Shown here: piece by piece, positions 13,609 through 21,842 of the stretch
How the letters are laid out: the number at the start of each line of letters is the position of its first letter
Numbering within the stretch: position 1 is the stretch's first letter
DNA from: a virus
Length of the DNA: 22,797 nucleotides
IMG/VR virus record: IMGVR_UViG_3300030390_000106
Coordinates: 1 to 22,797 of that record
Direction: 5' to 3' (one strand)
The notes under the pieces: generated by a model
Told to the model about the DNA's origin: nothing
The model's input: the letters and a program-made list of their open reading frames with translations, nothing else
Databases searched by the model: none
Translations under genes and position numbers: made by a program

Positions 13609-16293
13609 CTAGAAATCTAACAACCCTCTAGCTTTTTGGTTTTCTAGATGTCTTAACTTTTCATATGTAAGCAATCCAGTTGGTGTCGCTTGCATGTTTA
13701 TCTTTCTGTAATCATTATCTGTAAAGTTAGCTCTAGTCATTGGCAATACAGTACCATCTTTTTTAGGTGCTTTAGTGTTATCAAATATATCTAATAGACT
13801 AAGGTTCTCTGTAATCCTTGCATCTGCTGTTCCACCTAAAGCATTAGGATAAGTAGTATGTCCTGAAACTTTTCTAAAAGCATTGTCAGTATCTACTATA
13901 CCTACATTGCGTAAAGTTAAAGCTTCTTTGTTAGTTTGATAAGGGTCTGTATTTGCTATACGGGCTTGCGGTAAAGATATACTACCAAGTGAATTTGCAT
14001 CATATATTTTGCTACTCTTTTTAGTTAATTGCCCACCCTCTTTTCTAAAGTCTCTATCAAGTATTCGAGCTATCTCTTTACGTTGGTCACCGGTTGTGCC
14101 ATCTAAGATATTTGGTGTCTCTAGTCCTTCAAAGTCAGTATTGATATATTGTAGCGCTGGCTTAGTGCCACCATCAGGTGTTGGCGGTTGGTATGTGGAG
14201 TCTTTTCTAATTTGTTTGTTAGCCATAGCTAATTGTTTTGGTGTCAGATTAGCTAATGCTGCTTGTATCATTGTATCTGTTACTTGCTTACTAAAGTCCA
14301 TGCCAGTAGGTTTCATAGCAAACGGTAAATATAAAGGGTCTTTGCCAAACGCATCTTTTGCAGTCTTAGCCGCATCTACTAATTTGTTAATTGGTGTATT
14401 AGCTGATGCCCATATTAGATTATTCTTTACACTATTAGGCAATGCCATAAAATCTTGACCACCTAACATCTGTACTAACTCTGCTAATTTTTGTCCACCT
14501 ACTTCAGACAACGCACCACCAGCACGTGTTAAATCAGACTGACTAGCAATCCATGGAAAGCCTTCATAATCAAATATAGATTTGTTAGGTAAGTTTACTA
14601 GCTCTTCACCTACAATGACATGACCAAATTGGTCTAACAATCCACTCTCTAGTTTCTTTATGTCTCCTGTGCGGCTTGCCATACCAATGTCAACATCTTG
14701 GTTAGGCGTCCATATAATTTTGCTCTTTGTGTTATCTATCTTTACATCATTTGCTTCAAGTATCTTAGACGTGTCAGCATTAAATGTTACAAAGTTTCTA
14801 GTAGGGTCACCAAGATTTATTCCATCTCTTGTATTTGCATCAAAATACGTTCTACCTTTTATGCCATTAGCATCTAGTCTTTGCGAGATAATCTTTTCTA
14901 TTGCTTCATTTCGTATGCCACCACTATCCATTTTAAGTGCTGAAGCTGGTATACCATTTTGTGTTATCTCTCTAGTTACTAACCAATTGTAGATTCCTCC
15001 ACCGTTAGCTGGATGTGGTATGTTTGCATCCATAGACATAATATCTGCTAATAATGTTTCTCTTGCTTCTCCGACTGCTTTAACTTCTAACATTAATGCA
15101 TTACGTTTAGCGTCCGGTAATGAATCATCACCTAATAACTTTCTTATTTGTGTATATCTTTCTTGTAAAGGTTTGTATGCCATGACACCATCCATGTAAG
15201 CACCATGTTCTTTACGTAAAAAATCTCTTACTACCTGTGGTTGGTCATAGACTGGTAGTTCATCGTCCATCATAGTAGCGATTGCTTTGTCAGGTAAATC
15301 TACTTTGTATCTTCGAGCAGTTGAATCAGCAAAATCTTCTTGCCATTGTGCATGTATGTCTTTTAGCTTTAATTCAATTTCAGCAAAGTTAGGCTTATCT
15401 TTGTAAGCATTAAGCATGAATGCTAATGAATCACTAGGACTGTCAAAATCTAAAGCGTTTTCCCACATTTCAGATTCTAAATAATCTCCTCTATCTCTAG
15501 CATCGTCAAGCATTCTTCTCTGATTTTCATTTAACCAATCATCATCACCTTCATAGCTTCTTGCTACTCTCTTATTTTGTGCATGATAAACGCCCCATCC
15601 ATAAGCCTGTGCGCCTTCACCACTACCCATAAATTTAGTATTAAATCTAGTAAAACTAGCGTCTGAGCCATGCCAAACTGTTAAAGGAACGTTAGCAAAG
15701 ACTGGAGGAAATACATTATCCATTAAGTCATTACCATTTTCTATGCCCATCATGACACGTGAAGTAGCTAACTCTGCGTTCTCTATTGCCTTGGCTACTA
15801 CTGGAGCTGTAACGTTCTTTACTTGTCTAGCAACTAAGCCAGCACCTGTAAGTTCTAGCATAGCTTGAAATGGATGTTCTTGCGCCCACTTCTTAAATGC
15901 TGGGATACTACCATGTGTCTCAACAATTTCTGCCCATGCATCTTCAGCTATCTTTTCATTTGGTGAGCTATCGTAGCCAACCATCTCATCAAAAGACTCA
16001 AGCGCATTCATTACACCTTTTGGCATAAATGTCTTTAACATCTTTCTCCATGCGCCACCACCAACATCAACTATAGCTTTACCAGTCTCTATTGGGTTTT
16101 CAATCATAGTCTTGACATCTACAGCCGATTCTCGCATGTCAGGTCTAAAGTTTTTTGCTATGGTTTCATAATTTACATTAGCACCTAACTCAGCTTCTTG
16201 TATGTCACCGGCAAAGAACTCACTAATTGGACTACCTACGTTTTCTTGTAAGTTTTCTTTAAGTACATCCCATATGTTTCCTAGTCCACTCAC
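13609..16293 (-). CDS. Polyvalent virion-cluster protein with ADP-ribosyltransferase-like domain
   Basis: 894 residues. GTG start at 16293 (GTGA overlap, AAGGA upstream). Residues 1-200 are helical. Residues about 204-240 read PLTVWHGSDASFTRF, then GSGEGAQAYGWGVYHAQNK: a match to the ADP-ribosyltransferase fold of polyvalent proteins, with H208 and Y236 as the first two signature residues that grip NAD. A long helical insert follows, including YKVDLP and DDELPVYDQPQVVRDFL (about 329-359). The fold closes with GGGIYNWL (431-438), ANGIKGRTYFD (475-485) and NFVTFNADTSKIL (500-512). The third catalytic residue is not clear. Residues about 570-680 form another domain I know from large alphaproteobacterial phage proteins (IFDYEGFPWIASQSDLTRAG, GGQDF, WASAN, DFSKQVTDTMIQ). 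Probably packaged and injected to modify host proteins; the target is unknown. Confidence 0.65.
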   Translation of the reverse strand: MSGLGNIWDVLKENLQENVGSPISEFFAGDIQEAELGANVNYETIAKNFRPDMRESAVDVKTMIENPIETGKAIVDVGGGAWRKMLKTFMPKGVMNALESFDEMVGYDSSPNEKIAEDAWAEIVETHGSIPAFKKWAQEHPFQAMLELTGAGLVARQVKNVTAPVVAKAIENAELATSRVMMGIENGNDLMDNVFPPVFANVPLTVWHGSDASFTRFNTKFMGSGEGAQAYGWGVYHAQNKRVARSYEGDDDWLNENQRRMLDDARDRGDYLESEMWENALDFDSPSDSLAFMLNAYKDKPNFAEIELKLKDIHAQWQEDFADSTARRYKVDLPDKAIATMMDDELPVYDQPQVVRDFLRKEHGAYMDGVMAYKPLQERYTQIRKLLGDDSLPDAKRNALMLEVKAVGEARETLLADIMSMDANIPHPANGGGIYNWLVTREITQNGIPASALKMDSGGIRNEAIEKIISQRLDANGIKGRTYFDANTRDGINLGDPTRNFVTFNADTSKILEANDVKIDNTKSKIIWTPNQDVDIGMASRTGDIKKLESGLLDQFGHVIVGEELVNLPNKSIFDYEGFPWIASQSDLTRAGGALSEVGGQKLAELVQMLGGQDFMALPNSVKNNLIWASANTPINKLVDAAKTAKDAFGKDPLYLPFAMKPTGMDFSKQVTDTMIQAALANLTPKQLAMANKQIRKDSTYQPPTPDGGTKPALQYINTDFEGLETPNILDGTTGDQRKEIARILDRDFRKEGGQLTKKSSKIYDANSLGSISLPQARIANTDPYQTNKEALTLRNVGIVDTDNAFRKVSGHTTYPNALGGTADARITENLSLLDIFDNTKAPKKDGTVLPMTRANFTDNDYRKINMQATPTGLLTYEKLRHLENQKARGLLDF

Positions 16294-19126: not shown

Positions 19127-19472
19127 GACCTATCCCCCAATCTATAAATTTTTCAATGACATCTGCCACACAATATACCACAGCACACTCAGCACCATTA
19201 TCAGTAAGCTTGTCCATCATATCTGTTTGATTTTTACTTACTCTACCCTTTGGTATTAAACCATTCTTAGGTCTTTTAACTTCTAAAAAATAACTCATTC
19301 CTTCCCATACAAAACATAAGTCAGGCACGCCACTCTTAACACCTTCAGCTCTAAATTTTGCTGCCTCTATTTTTCCACGCTTACCACCATTAGGAATAGC
19401 AAAGTAACACACACGTCTAATGTCTAAATACTCACAAATTGCTTTCTGAACTAAATGTTCATCGTTTCTCAT
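19122..19472 (-). CDS. VRR-NUC domain nuclease
   Basis: 116 residues covering one VRR-NUC domain, a stand-alone PD-(D/E)xK nuclease. Visible motifs: Glu5 and VQKAICEYL (8-16), FAIPNGGKRGK (24-34), then GVPDLCF with Pro50-Asp51, FLEVKRP with Glu64 and Lys66, and GRVSKNQ with Gln82. These are the expected catalytic acidic pair, Lys and Gln. Phage members are structure-specific nucleases that probably resolve branched DNA before packaging, a job that fits their place upstream of terminase. ATG at 19472 lies in the last bases of the previous gene (14-base overlap), with a purine-rich but weak ribosome site. Confidence 0.85.
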   Translation of the reverse strand: MRNDEHLVQKAICEYLDIRRVCYFAIPNGGKRGKIEAAKFRAEGVKSGVPDLCFVWEGMSYFLEVKRPKNGLIPKGRVSKNQTDMMDKLTDNGAECAVVYCVADVIEKFIDWGIGH

Positions 19473-19635
19473 TATCTTTTTTTTCTTTTACTCTATCTAT
19501 AATCATAGTAAATTTTAGTTGGTCACACAATGCAATAATTTGGTCTTCTAAATCACTCTTGAGTTTCTTATCTTCAATCTTACTTAACAATGACATCAAA
19601 GAATGAATTGATTCTGCTACTTCTTCATTGGACAT
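19459..19635 (-). CDS. Small helical protein, unknown function
   Basis: 58 residues from ATG 19635: MSNEEVAESIHSLMSLLSKI, then a charged helix and a Lys/Glu tail (VKEKKDNEKR). An in-frame TTG at 19662 would add nine residues (MEQKKICNV) and has the better ribosome site (AGGA seven bases upstream). The ATG was preferred because it keeps the overlap with the helix-turn-helix gene to 11 bases, so translation could be coupled; this choice is uncertain. It looks like one or two amphipathic helices, possibly a coiled coil. No family recognised. It lies between a DNA-binding protein and a nuclease in one transcription unit. Confidence 0.55.
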   Translation of the reverse strand: MSNEEVAESIHSLMSLLSKIEDKKLKSDLEDQIIALCDQLKFTMIIDRVKEKKDNEKR

Positions 19636-19831
19636 TACGTTGCAGATTTTCTTCTGCTCCAAGATAATTTCCTAAACCATAAATTGCCCAATGTAGTTGT
19701 TGTTTGTCTGCTTTGATACGATGCGTTAAACCACTTAAAGAACAACCTAAATACGTAGCACACTTTGCTTGTGTTAAGCCTAATCGCTTGATTTCTGTTG
19801 GGATAGAATTGTAATATATTGTTTTAGACAT
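19625..19831 (-). CDS. Small helix-turn-helix DNA-binding protein
   Basis: 68 residues. Residues about 12-40 (TEIKRLGLTQAKCATYLGCS then LSGLTHRIKA) have the Xre/Cro helix-turn-helix form: LGLTQ as the first helix start, Ala-Thr-Tyr-Leu-Gly at the turn, and Ser-x-Ser-Gly-Leu-Thr in the recognition helix. The tail LHWAIYGLGNYLGA is hydrophobic and may dimerise. It is the first gene of the leftward arm and faces the control region, so it is a candidate regulator of one or more central promoters. ATG 19831 lacks a Shine-Dalgarno and sits about 20 bases from the predicted start of transcription. Confidence 0.65.
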   Translation of the reverse strand: MSKTIYYNSIPTEIKRLGLTQAKCATYLGCSLSGLTHRIKADKQQLHWAIYGLGNYLGAEENLQRNVQ

Positions 19832-19857
19832 AGTAATAATATATAGTAAATGAATCT

Positions 19858-19866
19858 ATTATATCA
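19858..19866 (-). promoter_or_regulatory. Extended -10 promoter for the helix-turn-helix gene, with inverted repeat
   Basis: The minus strand reads TGATATAAT, a perfect TATAAT preceded by the extended TGn. No good -35 is seen 17 bases upstream. The start would lie near 19851. An inverted repeat ATATC-6-GATAT (19861-19876) overlaps the box and could be an operator, possibly for the gene's own product. Confidence 0.45.
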
Positions 19867-19953
19867 ATAAAGATATTGTTTGTGTGTTGTTTTAGCTTTT
19901 TTTTCTTGCATGTACTTCTCCTTCGGAGACTGACCTTTGTAAAGCTTAGGAAT
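19864..19953 (-). CDS. Tiny lysine-rich reading frame, possible leader peptide
   Basis: ATG at 19911 has an ideal AAGGAG (19918-19923) six bases upstream and encodes only MQEKKAKTTHKQYLY, ending at a TGA that lies within the extended -10 of the next promoter. The same frame is open further upstream, after a TAA, and reads naturally from an ATT at 19953 with AAGGA nearby (PKLYKGQSPKEKYMQEKKAK), which is the extent given here. It is on the leftward transcript from the 20482 promoter. It may be a leader peptide or a chance frame. Expression is unproven. Confidence 0.25.
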   Translation of the reverse strand: MPKLYKGQSPKEKYMQEKKAKTTHKQYLY

Positions 19954-20054
19954 AAATTCCTTTTTTTAAAGCTCTTTACTTATCGGGTAATTCCTGAGTT
20001 GGGAGTTTCGGAGCAAAGAAATCCCTAACCACTAATCAAAGCAGTTAGAGATTG

Positions 20055-20201
20055 TCATCGGTATAAGTCCTTCGCAGTATTATCCGTATGCCTGAAACCA
20101 TTACAACTAATCAGGTCAGAGTCATCGCTACCTTGTAATAGGTACTCAGCCTTCTGCACTCTGCGCTTAGATTTATTAGCCTCCGAGGTGGTTACCAACA
20201 T
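20055..20201 (-). CDS. Possible 48-residue protein in the divergent gap
   Basis: An ATG-initiated frame (MLVTTSEANKSKRRVQKAEY, then LLQGSDDSDLISCNGFRHTD, then NTAKDLYR). The ribosome site is weak (AGATAAGAACC before TTTATG). The stop is TGA at 20055. The amino-acid mix looks like a normal soluble, basic-then-polar protein, but a frame of this length can arise by chance and it covers several of the inverted repeats. It would be read from the leftward promoter at 20482. Confidence 0.3.
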   Translation of the reverse strand: MLVTTSEANKSKRRVQKAEYLLQGSDDSDLISCNGFRHTDNTAKDLYR

Positions 20202-20220
20202 AAAGGTTCTTATCTAAACA

Positions 20221-20295
20221 TCAATCAACAGCCTCTTGGAACACATAGCTGAATCTCTTTTTTTTAAAGGTGTGAGTGAAACCGAAGTCAGACAT
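20221..20295 (-). CDS. Possible 24-residue protein in the divergent gap
   Basis: The frame MSDFGFTHTFKKKRFSYVFQ-EAVD begins at ATG 20295 with a fair GAGAGGTGAT site just upstream and ends at TGA 20221. An A8 run encodes the three lysines. It lies 25 bases after the stop of the 29-residue frame. The ribosome site is the main support; there is no homology I recognise. Confidence 0.3.
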   Translation of the reverse strand: MSDFGFTHTFKKKRFSYVFQEAVD

Positions 20296-20317
20296 ATCAC
20301 CTCTCGTATCCTGATAC

Positions 20318-20345
20318 TTGCTAATACGTTGTGAGATGGTATAAT
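20318..20345 (+). promoter_or_regulatory. Possible rightward promoter (TTGCTA-16-TATAAT) with dyad over the -10
   Basis: A perfect TATAAT at 20340-20345, with TTGCTA (4/6) 16 bases upstream. Arms CGTT-GTGA (20327-20334) and TCAC-(AG)-AACG flank the -10 as an inverted repeat. Together with the terminator at 20383-20413 it would make an RNA of about 60 bases antisense to the leftward leader. Weak -35, so tentative. Confidence 0.3.
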
Positions 20346-20410
20346 ATTTCACAGAACGGTAGCCAAAATACCAGTTTAGAAATGTCTAGGGCTTCAACCA
20401 CCCTAGGCAT
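20321..20410 (-). CDS. Possible 29-residue protein at the start of the leftward leader
   Basis: The frame from ATG 20410 reads MPRVVEALDISKLVFWLPFC then EILYHLTTY, hydrophobic in the middle. There is no strong Shine-Dalgarno (AAGAGATTAGATAGCAAA before ATG). It would be the first frame on the transcript from the promoter at 20454-20482, and it lies opposite the possible antisense unit. A chance frame is quite possible. Confidence 0.2.
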   Translation of the reverse strand: MPRVVEALDISKLVFWLPFCEILYHLTTY

Positions 20411-20413
20411 TTT
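20383..20413 (+). terminator. Rightward hairpin terminator in the divergent gap
   Basis: Stem TGTCTAGGG (20383-20391), nine-base loop, CCCTAGGCA (20401-20409), followed by TTTT. Nine pairs with one T-G wobble. The U tract is on the plus strand. It would end a short rightward RNA before the main early promoter. On the minus strand the following tract is only TTTCT. Confidence 0.5.
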
Positions 20414-20453
20414 GCTATCTAATCTCTTAAATAACTCTAAACCAAGAACACAA

Positions 20454-20482
20454 ATCATACCCTTCGATTAAATGTAGGTCAA
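20454..20482 (-). promoter_or_regulatory. Leftward sigma70 promoter (TTGACC-17-TATGAT)
   Basis: On the minus strand, TTGACC (20482-20477), 17 bases, TATGAT (20459-20454); both hexamers are 5/6. The start of transcription would be near 20447, more than 600 bases before the first clear leftward gene at 19831. It lies back to back with the rightward promoter at 20522, so the pair forms the divergent control point. Confidence 0.6.
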
Positions 20483-20500
20483 CCCATTTTGATTTATTTT

Positions 20501-20527
20501 GTCTGTTTAATTAAATAAAGCTTGACA
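20501..20527 (+). repeat. Promoter-upstream direct repeat, copy 1
   Basis: These 27 bases, an AT-rich tract ending in AAAGCTTGACA, recur at 21750-21776 with two differences. The AT-rich part lies where an UP element would sit, directly upstream of and including the -35. The third early promoter at 22756 lacks it. Confidence 0.7.
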
Positions 20528-20550
20528 AACGACCTCAAATGGTGTATAAT
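20522..20550 (+). promoter_or_regulatory. Early rightward promoter 1 (TTGACA-17-TATAAT)
   Basis: Perfect consensus -35 (20522-20527) and -10 (20545-20550) with a 17-base spacer and an AT-rich upstream tract. The start is expected near 20557, about 42 bases before ATG 20599. It should be read by host RNA polymerase at once after entry and drives the 78-residue and DUF932 genes. Confidence 0.85.
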
Positions 20551-20565
20551 TACCCCGTAATTGAG
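20534..20565. promoter_or_regulatory. Operator-like dyad centred on the -10 of promoter 1
   Basis: CTCAA (20534-20538) and TTGAG (20561-20565) form an inverted repeat of 32 bases in total, centred on the -10. Promoter 2 has the same arms at the same spacing, and the right arm recurs as ATTG at promoter 3. A dimeric repressor binding here would block open-complex formation. Confidence 0.45.
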
Positions 20566-20598
20566 ATGAATTACCTACTTTAACCCATAGGAGATACA

Positions 20599-20835
20599 AT
20601 GAACAAATTTAACAAAGACCAATTTAATTTTGATGGACTATATCTTACTTACGATTTTCTTGATGGTGAACGTGGAGCTTTTGTTGGAAGATTTAAATAC
20701 AACAGAAGCATAGCATTACGTTTTATTACTTTTTTAGTAAACAACATGACTGTCTCAGAATATTTTGATTTGCTTGAAGATGGACAAACTCCGGGCAGAA
20801 TTACAATGGACAGAGGCTTTAAATTTATACTTTAA
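20599..20835 (+). CDS. Small conserved-looking early protein, function unknown
   Basis: 78 residues. The first gene after early promoter 1, with AGGAG five bases before the ATG. The sequence FNFDGLYLTYDFLDGERGAF, then VGRFKYNRS, ITFLVNNMTVSEYFDLLEDG resembles small unannotated phage and plasmid proteins with the layout DGxYLxY, VxRFKY, FLxxNxTVxEYFxxLExG. It is probably one compact alpha/beta domain, with no membrane segment or catalytic motif. Its early position suggests a host-takeover or regulatory role, but that is only inference. Confidence 0.65.
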   Translation: MNKFNKDQFNFDGLYLTYDFLDGERGAFVGRFKYNRSIALRFITFLVNNMTVSEYFDLLEDGQTPGRITMDRGFKFIL

Positions 20836-21718: not shown

Positions 21719-21749
21719 CCCTCGGCTTTATTCACCGAGGGTTTTTTTT
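21719..21749 (+). terminator. Strong intrinsic terminator of early unit 1
   Basis: CCCTCGG (21719-21725), nine-base loop, CCGAGGG (21735-21741), then eight T (21742-21749). Classic Rho-independent form, 29 bases after the DUF932 stop and just upstream of promoter 2, isolating the two units. Confidence 0.9.
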
Positions 21750-21776
21750 GTCTATTTAATTAGATAAAGCTTGACA
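21750..21776 (+). repeat. Promoter-upstream direct repeat, copy 2
   Basis: Copy of 20501-20527 with two mismatches in 27 bases, starting immediately after the terminator T tract and ending in the -35 box. Confidence 0.7.
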
Positions 21777-21799
21777 TTCTGTCTCAATGGTGGTATAAT
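21771..21799 (+). promoter_or_regulatory. Early rightward promoter 2 (TTGACA-17-TATAAT)
   Basis: Perfect -35 (21771-21776) and -10 (21794-21799) with a 17-base spacer. The start is expected near 21806, some 37 bases before ATG 21843. Leader and ribosome site (TTTTAACTTATAGGAGAT) resemble those of unit 1. Confidence 0.85.
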
Positions 21800-21814
21800 A
21801 ACCTTGTTATTGAG
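21783..21814. promoter_or_regulatory. Operator-like dyad centred on the -10 of promoter 2
   Basis: CTCAA (21783-21787) and TTGAG (21810-21814); including flanking bases the arms extend to TCTCAAT and ATTGAGA. Same 32-base span and same register to the -10 as at promoter 1. Confidence 0.5.
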
Positions 21815-21842
21815 ATAAACTTTTAACTTATAGGAGATTTAA

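Follow-up and report, generated by a model that had tools for sequence, protein, structure and literature searches.

We are highly confident, on the strength of sequence comparisons, that the divergent intergenic gap of this viral record holds a conserved structured non-coding RNA, which we term RNA1. Judged by its lack of covariance-model matches, this RNA is absent from Rfam and is neither GOLLD nor ROOL. Its 5′ part is probably covered by a short plus-strand antisense RNA, RNA2, a transcript that is predicted from sequence and has not been observed. We further propose that RNA1 and RNA2 form a ColE1-like, antisense-controlled, RNA-primed replication origin; this function is inferred, and we consider the chances that it is correct to be about even.

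The window, by which we mean the entire 22.8 kb stretch of virus DNA that was analyzed, contains genes in both orientations. The leftward (minus strand) genes comprise a portal-to-terminase block, NinB, a VRR_NUC nuclease, and then a 68 aa HTH-like protein (19625–19831) that adjoins the gap; the rightward (plus strand) genes start with a 78 aa ORF (20599–20835) and include a gene encoding a DUF932 protein. The initial annotation of this DNA had described a densely structured divergent gap of about 770 bases, and the interval between the HTH-like and 78 aa ORFs (19832–20598) is indeed 767 bases long. The same annotation placed consecutive inverted repeats at about 19917–20217; structure is present there, but that extent is too small, given that the structured part reaches from about 19890 to 20447. 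Single-sequence folding of the whole gap only modestly surpasses shuffled sequences (z of −2.67 for the plus and −2.30 for the minus strand), the core of the window gives a z-score of approximately −0.6, and nothing was found by a seed-based search for repeats. The proof of an RNA is comparative covariation and not folding energy. On its rightward side, the gap contains an early promoter with a 12/12 match to consensus (TTGACA-N17-TATAAT, 20522–20550, plus strand), which lies within the first of two copies of an early-promoter repeat element of approximately 100 bases (20493–20595 and 21742–21838, 77% identical); further copies of this element are present in relatives. Elsewhere in the window, an 894 aa protein encoded downstream of the terminase (13609–16293, minus strand) has a weak match to ART-PolyVal that is below the cut-off and is possibly a polyvalent protein.

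A scan for DUF932 yielded 65 loci, 36 of which have a homologous gap with 72–92% identity, and more diverged members were added via a conserved 16-mer, an HTH profile, and a gapped motif. The resulting 174 loci, many of which overlap as fragments of a single contig, contain 68 distinct sequences and were represented by a reduced set of 59, so that the RNA family is seen in dozens of distinct sequences. The near-complete genomes among the relatives are 36–41 kb in length, and each has a single copy of the RNA. The initial annotation had suggested that relatives be checked for conservation across the gap and for covarying pairs; the former is evident in the identity given above, and the latter were found in tests against a tree-based null and as double changes. 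The gap has no match by blastn in phage and plasmid collections, and an Rfam search at the gathering score and at E-values up to 10 returned nothing relevant in it, including no match to GOLLD or ROOL. The conserved 16-mer gave 11 matches in bacterial genome contigs; we rejected these matches as chance because none of them extended.

Covariation was tested against the tree-based null on 48 and then on 59 sequences. Many Watson–Crick pairs covary above the null in the set of 48, and five helical pairs do so at E ≤ 0.05 in the set of 59 (20216–20168, 20214–20170, 20303–20267, 20040–20033, and 19958–19951). A few column pairs that are not Watson–Crick also score highly in these tests, and therefore only helically placed Watson–Crick pairs were counted. 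In the core of RNA1 (20008–20168), which was examined in 52 sequences, 93.8% of cells are paired, compared with 87.0% after shuffling and approximately 34% with slid partners. Changes on both sides occur in 21 of the 48 core pairs, and this was reached by none of 500 shuffles. The percentage paired is biased toward the core structure, which was partly derived from the same sequences, and the double changes are thus the stronger evidence for the core.

RNA1 is predicted to be approximately 560 nt in length (19890–20447, minus strand), a delineation based on covarying helices, counts of G–U and A–C pairs, and a promoter. Its 5′ end at 20447 is inferred from that promoter (TTGACC-N17-TATGAT, 20454–20482, minus strand), which was found by consensus scan and is matched by a TATNAT sequence at the same place in relatives; the 3′ end is approximate and has not been defined. 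Proceeding from the 5′ end along the minus strand, the first helix listed is a hairpin of the AGGUG...CACCU type (20267–20304), in which the pair 20303–20267 covaries with an E-value of about 0. The branched element at 20167–20217 recognized in the initial annotation is real and recurs in relatives, two of its pairs (20216–20168 and 20214–20170) covarying; in some relatives (L030, L028, and L024) the branch is deleted as a unit and a short stem remains. The core stem and its inner hairpin follow (20117–20163), its outer and inner helices being paired in 96–100% of cells and showing double changes, and next to them is a hairpin (20091–20115) in which all five pairs show double changes and 100% of cells are paired. 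The loops of these two hairpins, 20134–20139 and 20100–20105, are complementary (AUUACA/UGUAAU) and are predicted to form a kissing loop, with 95% of cells paired and three pairs double-changed. Across relatives the same contact is found as AUUACA/UGUAAU, AUCACA/UGUGAU, AUCAUA/UAUGAU, and AAUACA/UGUAUU, and it is supported by these compensatory changes, in which pairing has been restored in several lineages. In one relative (L171) the outer stem is mostly replaced and its pairing is retained.

The stem at 20056–20090, for which a one-base bulge on each side had been claimed from the single sequence, is likewise real and recurs in relatives, with 87.9% of cells paired. It is followed by a hairpin of 14 pairs (AAUCUCUAAC...GUUAGGGAUU, 20020–20053) and a conserved UUUCUUU sequence, a pattern that is terminator-like; a U–G pair in this hairpin is conserved in 51 of 52 sequences. 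The hairpin and UUUCUUU resemble a weak intrinsic terminator and might act in pausing or attenuation. Toward the 3′ end are a small hairpin preceded by an A-tract (19949–19960), with covariation of the pair 19958–19951 (E about 0), and a 3′ hairpin (19917–19929) whose stems exchange between UCUC/GAGA and UCGC/GCGA in relatives. Three relatives (L094, L231, and L238) have a recurring insertion between RNA1 and the promoter of the HTH gene that contains an AACGAACGAAGTGGAGTGCG-like or related hairpin sequence. A terminal helix joining the ends of RNA1 (GGUUUAG/CUAAACC) was rejected, as it is inconsistent across relatives.

The assignment of RNA1 to the minus strand is based on the asymmetry of G–U and A–C pairs. 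When pairs predicted on both strands outside the RNA2 terminator hairpin are read on the minus strand, G–U outnumbers A–C by 119 to 17 cells, and the same contrast holds when pair types are counted (31 vs. 11, p = 0.003). The terminator hairpin of RNA2 reverses the asymmetry (14 vs. 35 cells), as expected of a plus-strand element; this reversal is not significant by pair types. Mean fold z-scores are −1.8 for the minus and −0.95 for the plus strand and, together with the G–U and A–C counts, led us to reject the plus strand for this RNA. A long-range closing helix in the plus-strand fold (ATTATATC/GGTATAAT) was also rejected, its two halves being −10 boxes. The gap does contain ORFs of 43–50 aa, which would favor the competing reading in the initial annotation that it is a run of tiny genes. 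We regard this reading as having almost no chance of being correct, as no gap ORF is conserved: across 58 relatives, each of five ORFs lacks internal stops in only 0–10 and keeps its start in 3–18, and length changes are not multiples of 3 in about half or more of the relatives. The main reading in that annotation, a large structured non-coding RNA or long leader, is supported by the covariation, the conservation, and the absence of a conserved ORF.

RNA2 is predicted from a promoter and a terminator to be a plus-strand RNA of about 63 nt (20351–20413) that faces nucleotides 30–100 from the 5′ end of RNA1 and is complementary to it. Its promoter (TTGCTA-N16-TATAAT with a TG before the −10, 20318–20345) is conserved in relatives: the TATAAT −10 is present in 59 of 59 and TTGC at the −35 in 51 of 59, with a spacer of 15–17. 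We note that the promoters of RNA1, RNA2, and the early rightward genes in the window were all found by an independent pattern and consensus scan. The RNA2 terminator, a hairpin and T-run at 20380–20413, is found about 50–75 nt past the promoter in 50 of 59 relatives. The hairpin upstream of it (20358–20372) shows co-changing pairs in the alignment of relatives (GGUA/UACC, GGUG/CACC, GCAG/CUGC, and GGAA/UUCC). The predicted starts of RNA1 (about 20447) and RNA2 (about 20351) are about 95 nt apart, a distance that is approximately 70 to 110 in other relatives. The promoter and terminator of RNA2 rank with the least variable parts, and RNA2 could itself be the functional product, acting as a plus-strand small RNA for which RNA1 serves mainly as a titrating antisense or sponge; we consider this very improbable, as the body of RNA1 remains strongly structure-constrained, with a conserved kissing loop, for hundreds of bases past RNA2.

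The gene neighborhood of the RNA is conserved on one side only: the operon that follows RNA1 is retained, and the rightward neighbors are variable. The RNA adjoins the gene for the HTH-like protein, the first gene of the leftward operon, in 59 of 59 members of the reduced set (the protein cluster, c0, has 52 members over 53 contexts). In nearly all relatives RNA1 is upstream, in the sense direction, of this HTH-VRR_NUC-NinB-terminase operon, the leftward genes span most of the near-complete genomes, and the window has no strong terminator between RNA1 and the HTH gene. These features would suit a 5′ leader of the leftward late operon that acts either in cis by put-like antitermination or as an attenuator under RNA2 control. 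We nevertheless judge such a leader improbable. Past RNA1, a conserved promoter serves the HTH operon itself, with a −10 (TGATATAAT) at 19858–19863 (minus strand) in the window; 53 of 59 relatives have a −10 no more than 90 nt from the start of the HTH gene, and in 49 it is TG-extended. In addition, in one lineage represented by two contigs (L184 and L188), the unit composed of the RNA1 start and RNA2 is inverted and faces away from the operon while both flanking promoters are unmoved (L184:3085–3885); the RNA body in these contigs has no detectable homology to RNA1. As read from sequence, this inversion argues against a strict late-operon leader and would be tolerable for an origin. A leader also leaves unexplained the missing replicases described below. 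In another relative (G008; L258/L259) the RNA, the left operon, and SSB are held in common, the structural genes are largely different, and the terminase is 38% identical, which is module exchange around the RNA. A conserved protein of 52–72 aa (19459–19662, minus strand), probably a helical hairpin and of the size of Rop, is encoded two genes away; a profile comparison gave no Rop relationship, and we rejected it as a Rop-like partner.

The gene content of the relatives bears on the function of RNA1. We searched 22 records for replication genes, 13 that bear the RNA and nine DUF932 relatives that lack it. None of the 13 RNA-bearing records contains DNA_pol_A (family A polymerase) or DnaB_C (DnaB-type helicase), which are present in 8 and 9, respectively, of the 9 RNA-less records; Phage_rep_O, the lambda O-type initiator, was absent from all records searched. 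The RNA-less relatives encode primase-helicase and polymerase-like proteins in their early region. In the near-complete genomes the early region is short and encodes SSB and small proteins, and the RNA-bearing phages encode SSB and, where seen, a phrog_11717-like protein that we infer to be an annealase. We are cautious about this contrast, which derives from a few clades, possibly with partial records, and not from many independent events. No initiator protein was recognized in the early genes, although an initiator could be among the approximately 10 early ORFs of unknown function. The gap contains no DnaA boxes, and GC skew was set aside as origin evidence, being confounded with gene direction.

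The origin reading draws on the ColE1-like layout of the RNA pair and on its occurrence in phages without recognizable DNA-copying proteins; no transcript, primer, RNA–DNA hybrid, or replication start has been observed. According to this model, host RNA polymerase would transcribe RNA1, the fold of which would keep its 3′ part hybridized near 19900 to the template DNA. Processing of this hybrid and its extension by host polymerase would then start DNA synthesis in the leftward direction, with no initiator protein from the phage. The hairpin loop of RNA2 would bind nascent RNA1, alter its folding, and limit priming, and later replication would probably proceed by recombination using the phage SSB and annealase-like protein. 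More tentatively, and at somewhat less than even chances, we suggest that this widespread phage family discarded its replication proteins and that its sole replication start is a structured RNA primer under antisense RNA control, a system with no recognized sequence relationship to ColE1. How replication starts in phages without recognizable replication genes is an open question, for which RNA1 is a concrete and testable candidate.

The most serious alternative to an origin, although we think it unlikely, is that RNA1 is a stand-alone ornate RNA of the GOLLD/ROOL type, for example an RNA cage or trans-acting structural RNA, that is regulated by RNA2 as an antisense and has no role in replication. 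Like GOLLD and ROOL, RNA1 is a large phage RNA with a kissing loop, its size, complexity, and domain deletion also resemble ornate phage RNAs (PMC12286853), and the presence of one copy per near-complete genome is compatible with this alternative. It does not account for an antisense unit at a ColE1-like distance, which distinguishes RNA1 from GOLLD and ROOL, or for the match with absent replicases. Furthermore, GOLLD and ROOL are often encoded near tRNA islands (PMC12286853), and no tRNA genes were found in the window. Even if RNA1 is not part of an origin, it represents a new family of large structured RNAs in which covariation supports a kissing loop and an antisense unit is conserved.

Several known systems share features with the proposed origin. 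In the cluster A mycobacteriophages Alma, LadyBird, and RedRock, prophage replication has been reported to depend on a non-coding RNA (PMC7157519). As in the gap system, a phage RNA of a few hundred bases is implicated in replication and RepA is absent; however, that RNA functions in prophage maintenance beside parABS, its deletion leaves lytic growth normal, and we found no description of an antisense RNA for those origins (PMC7157519). The phages with the gap RNA, unlike those of cluster A, lack any recognized replicase. The ssr7036/asRNA1 pair of the Synechocystis plasmid pSYSA also consists of overlapping RNAs with ColE1-like control, but the primer is an mRNA, 304 nt separate the starts, and the system depends on a Rep protein (PMC9978351). 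The closest parallel in layout is ColE1 itself, although we found no match of RNA2 to the Rfam RNAI model (RF00106) at the gathering score or at E-values up to 10 and no testable sequence likeness between RNA1 and ColE1 RNAII. The gap system also differs in its location in phages, in having no Rop homologue that we could find, and in the form of its antisense RNA, which is predicted to have two hairpins in approximately 63 nt whereas ColE1 RNAI is 108 nt long with three stem-loops. In ColE1, RNA II spans the 550 nt leading up to the origin, RNA I corresponds to nucleotides 2–110, and there is no plasmid initiator (PMC5043065); the starts of RNAI and RNAII are 108 bp apart (PMC9978351). In the gap system no initiator protein is recognized among early ORFs of which several have unknown functions, and the same arrangement is predicted: a long structured RNA of similar length (about 560 vs. 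about 550 nt) with its own promoter, for which priming has not been shown, and a short antisense RNA over its 5′ part with its own promoter and terminator, the two starts being about 100 nt apart as in ColE1.
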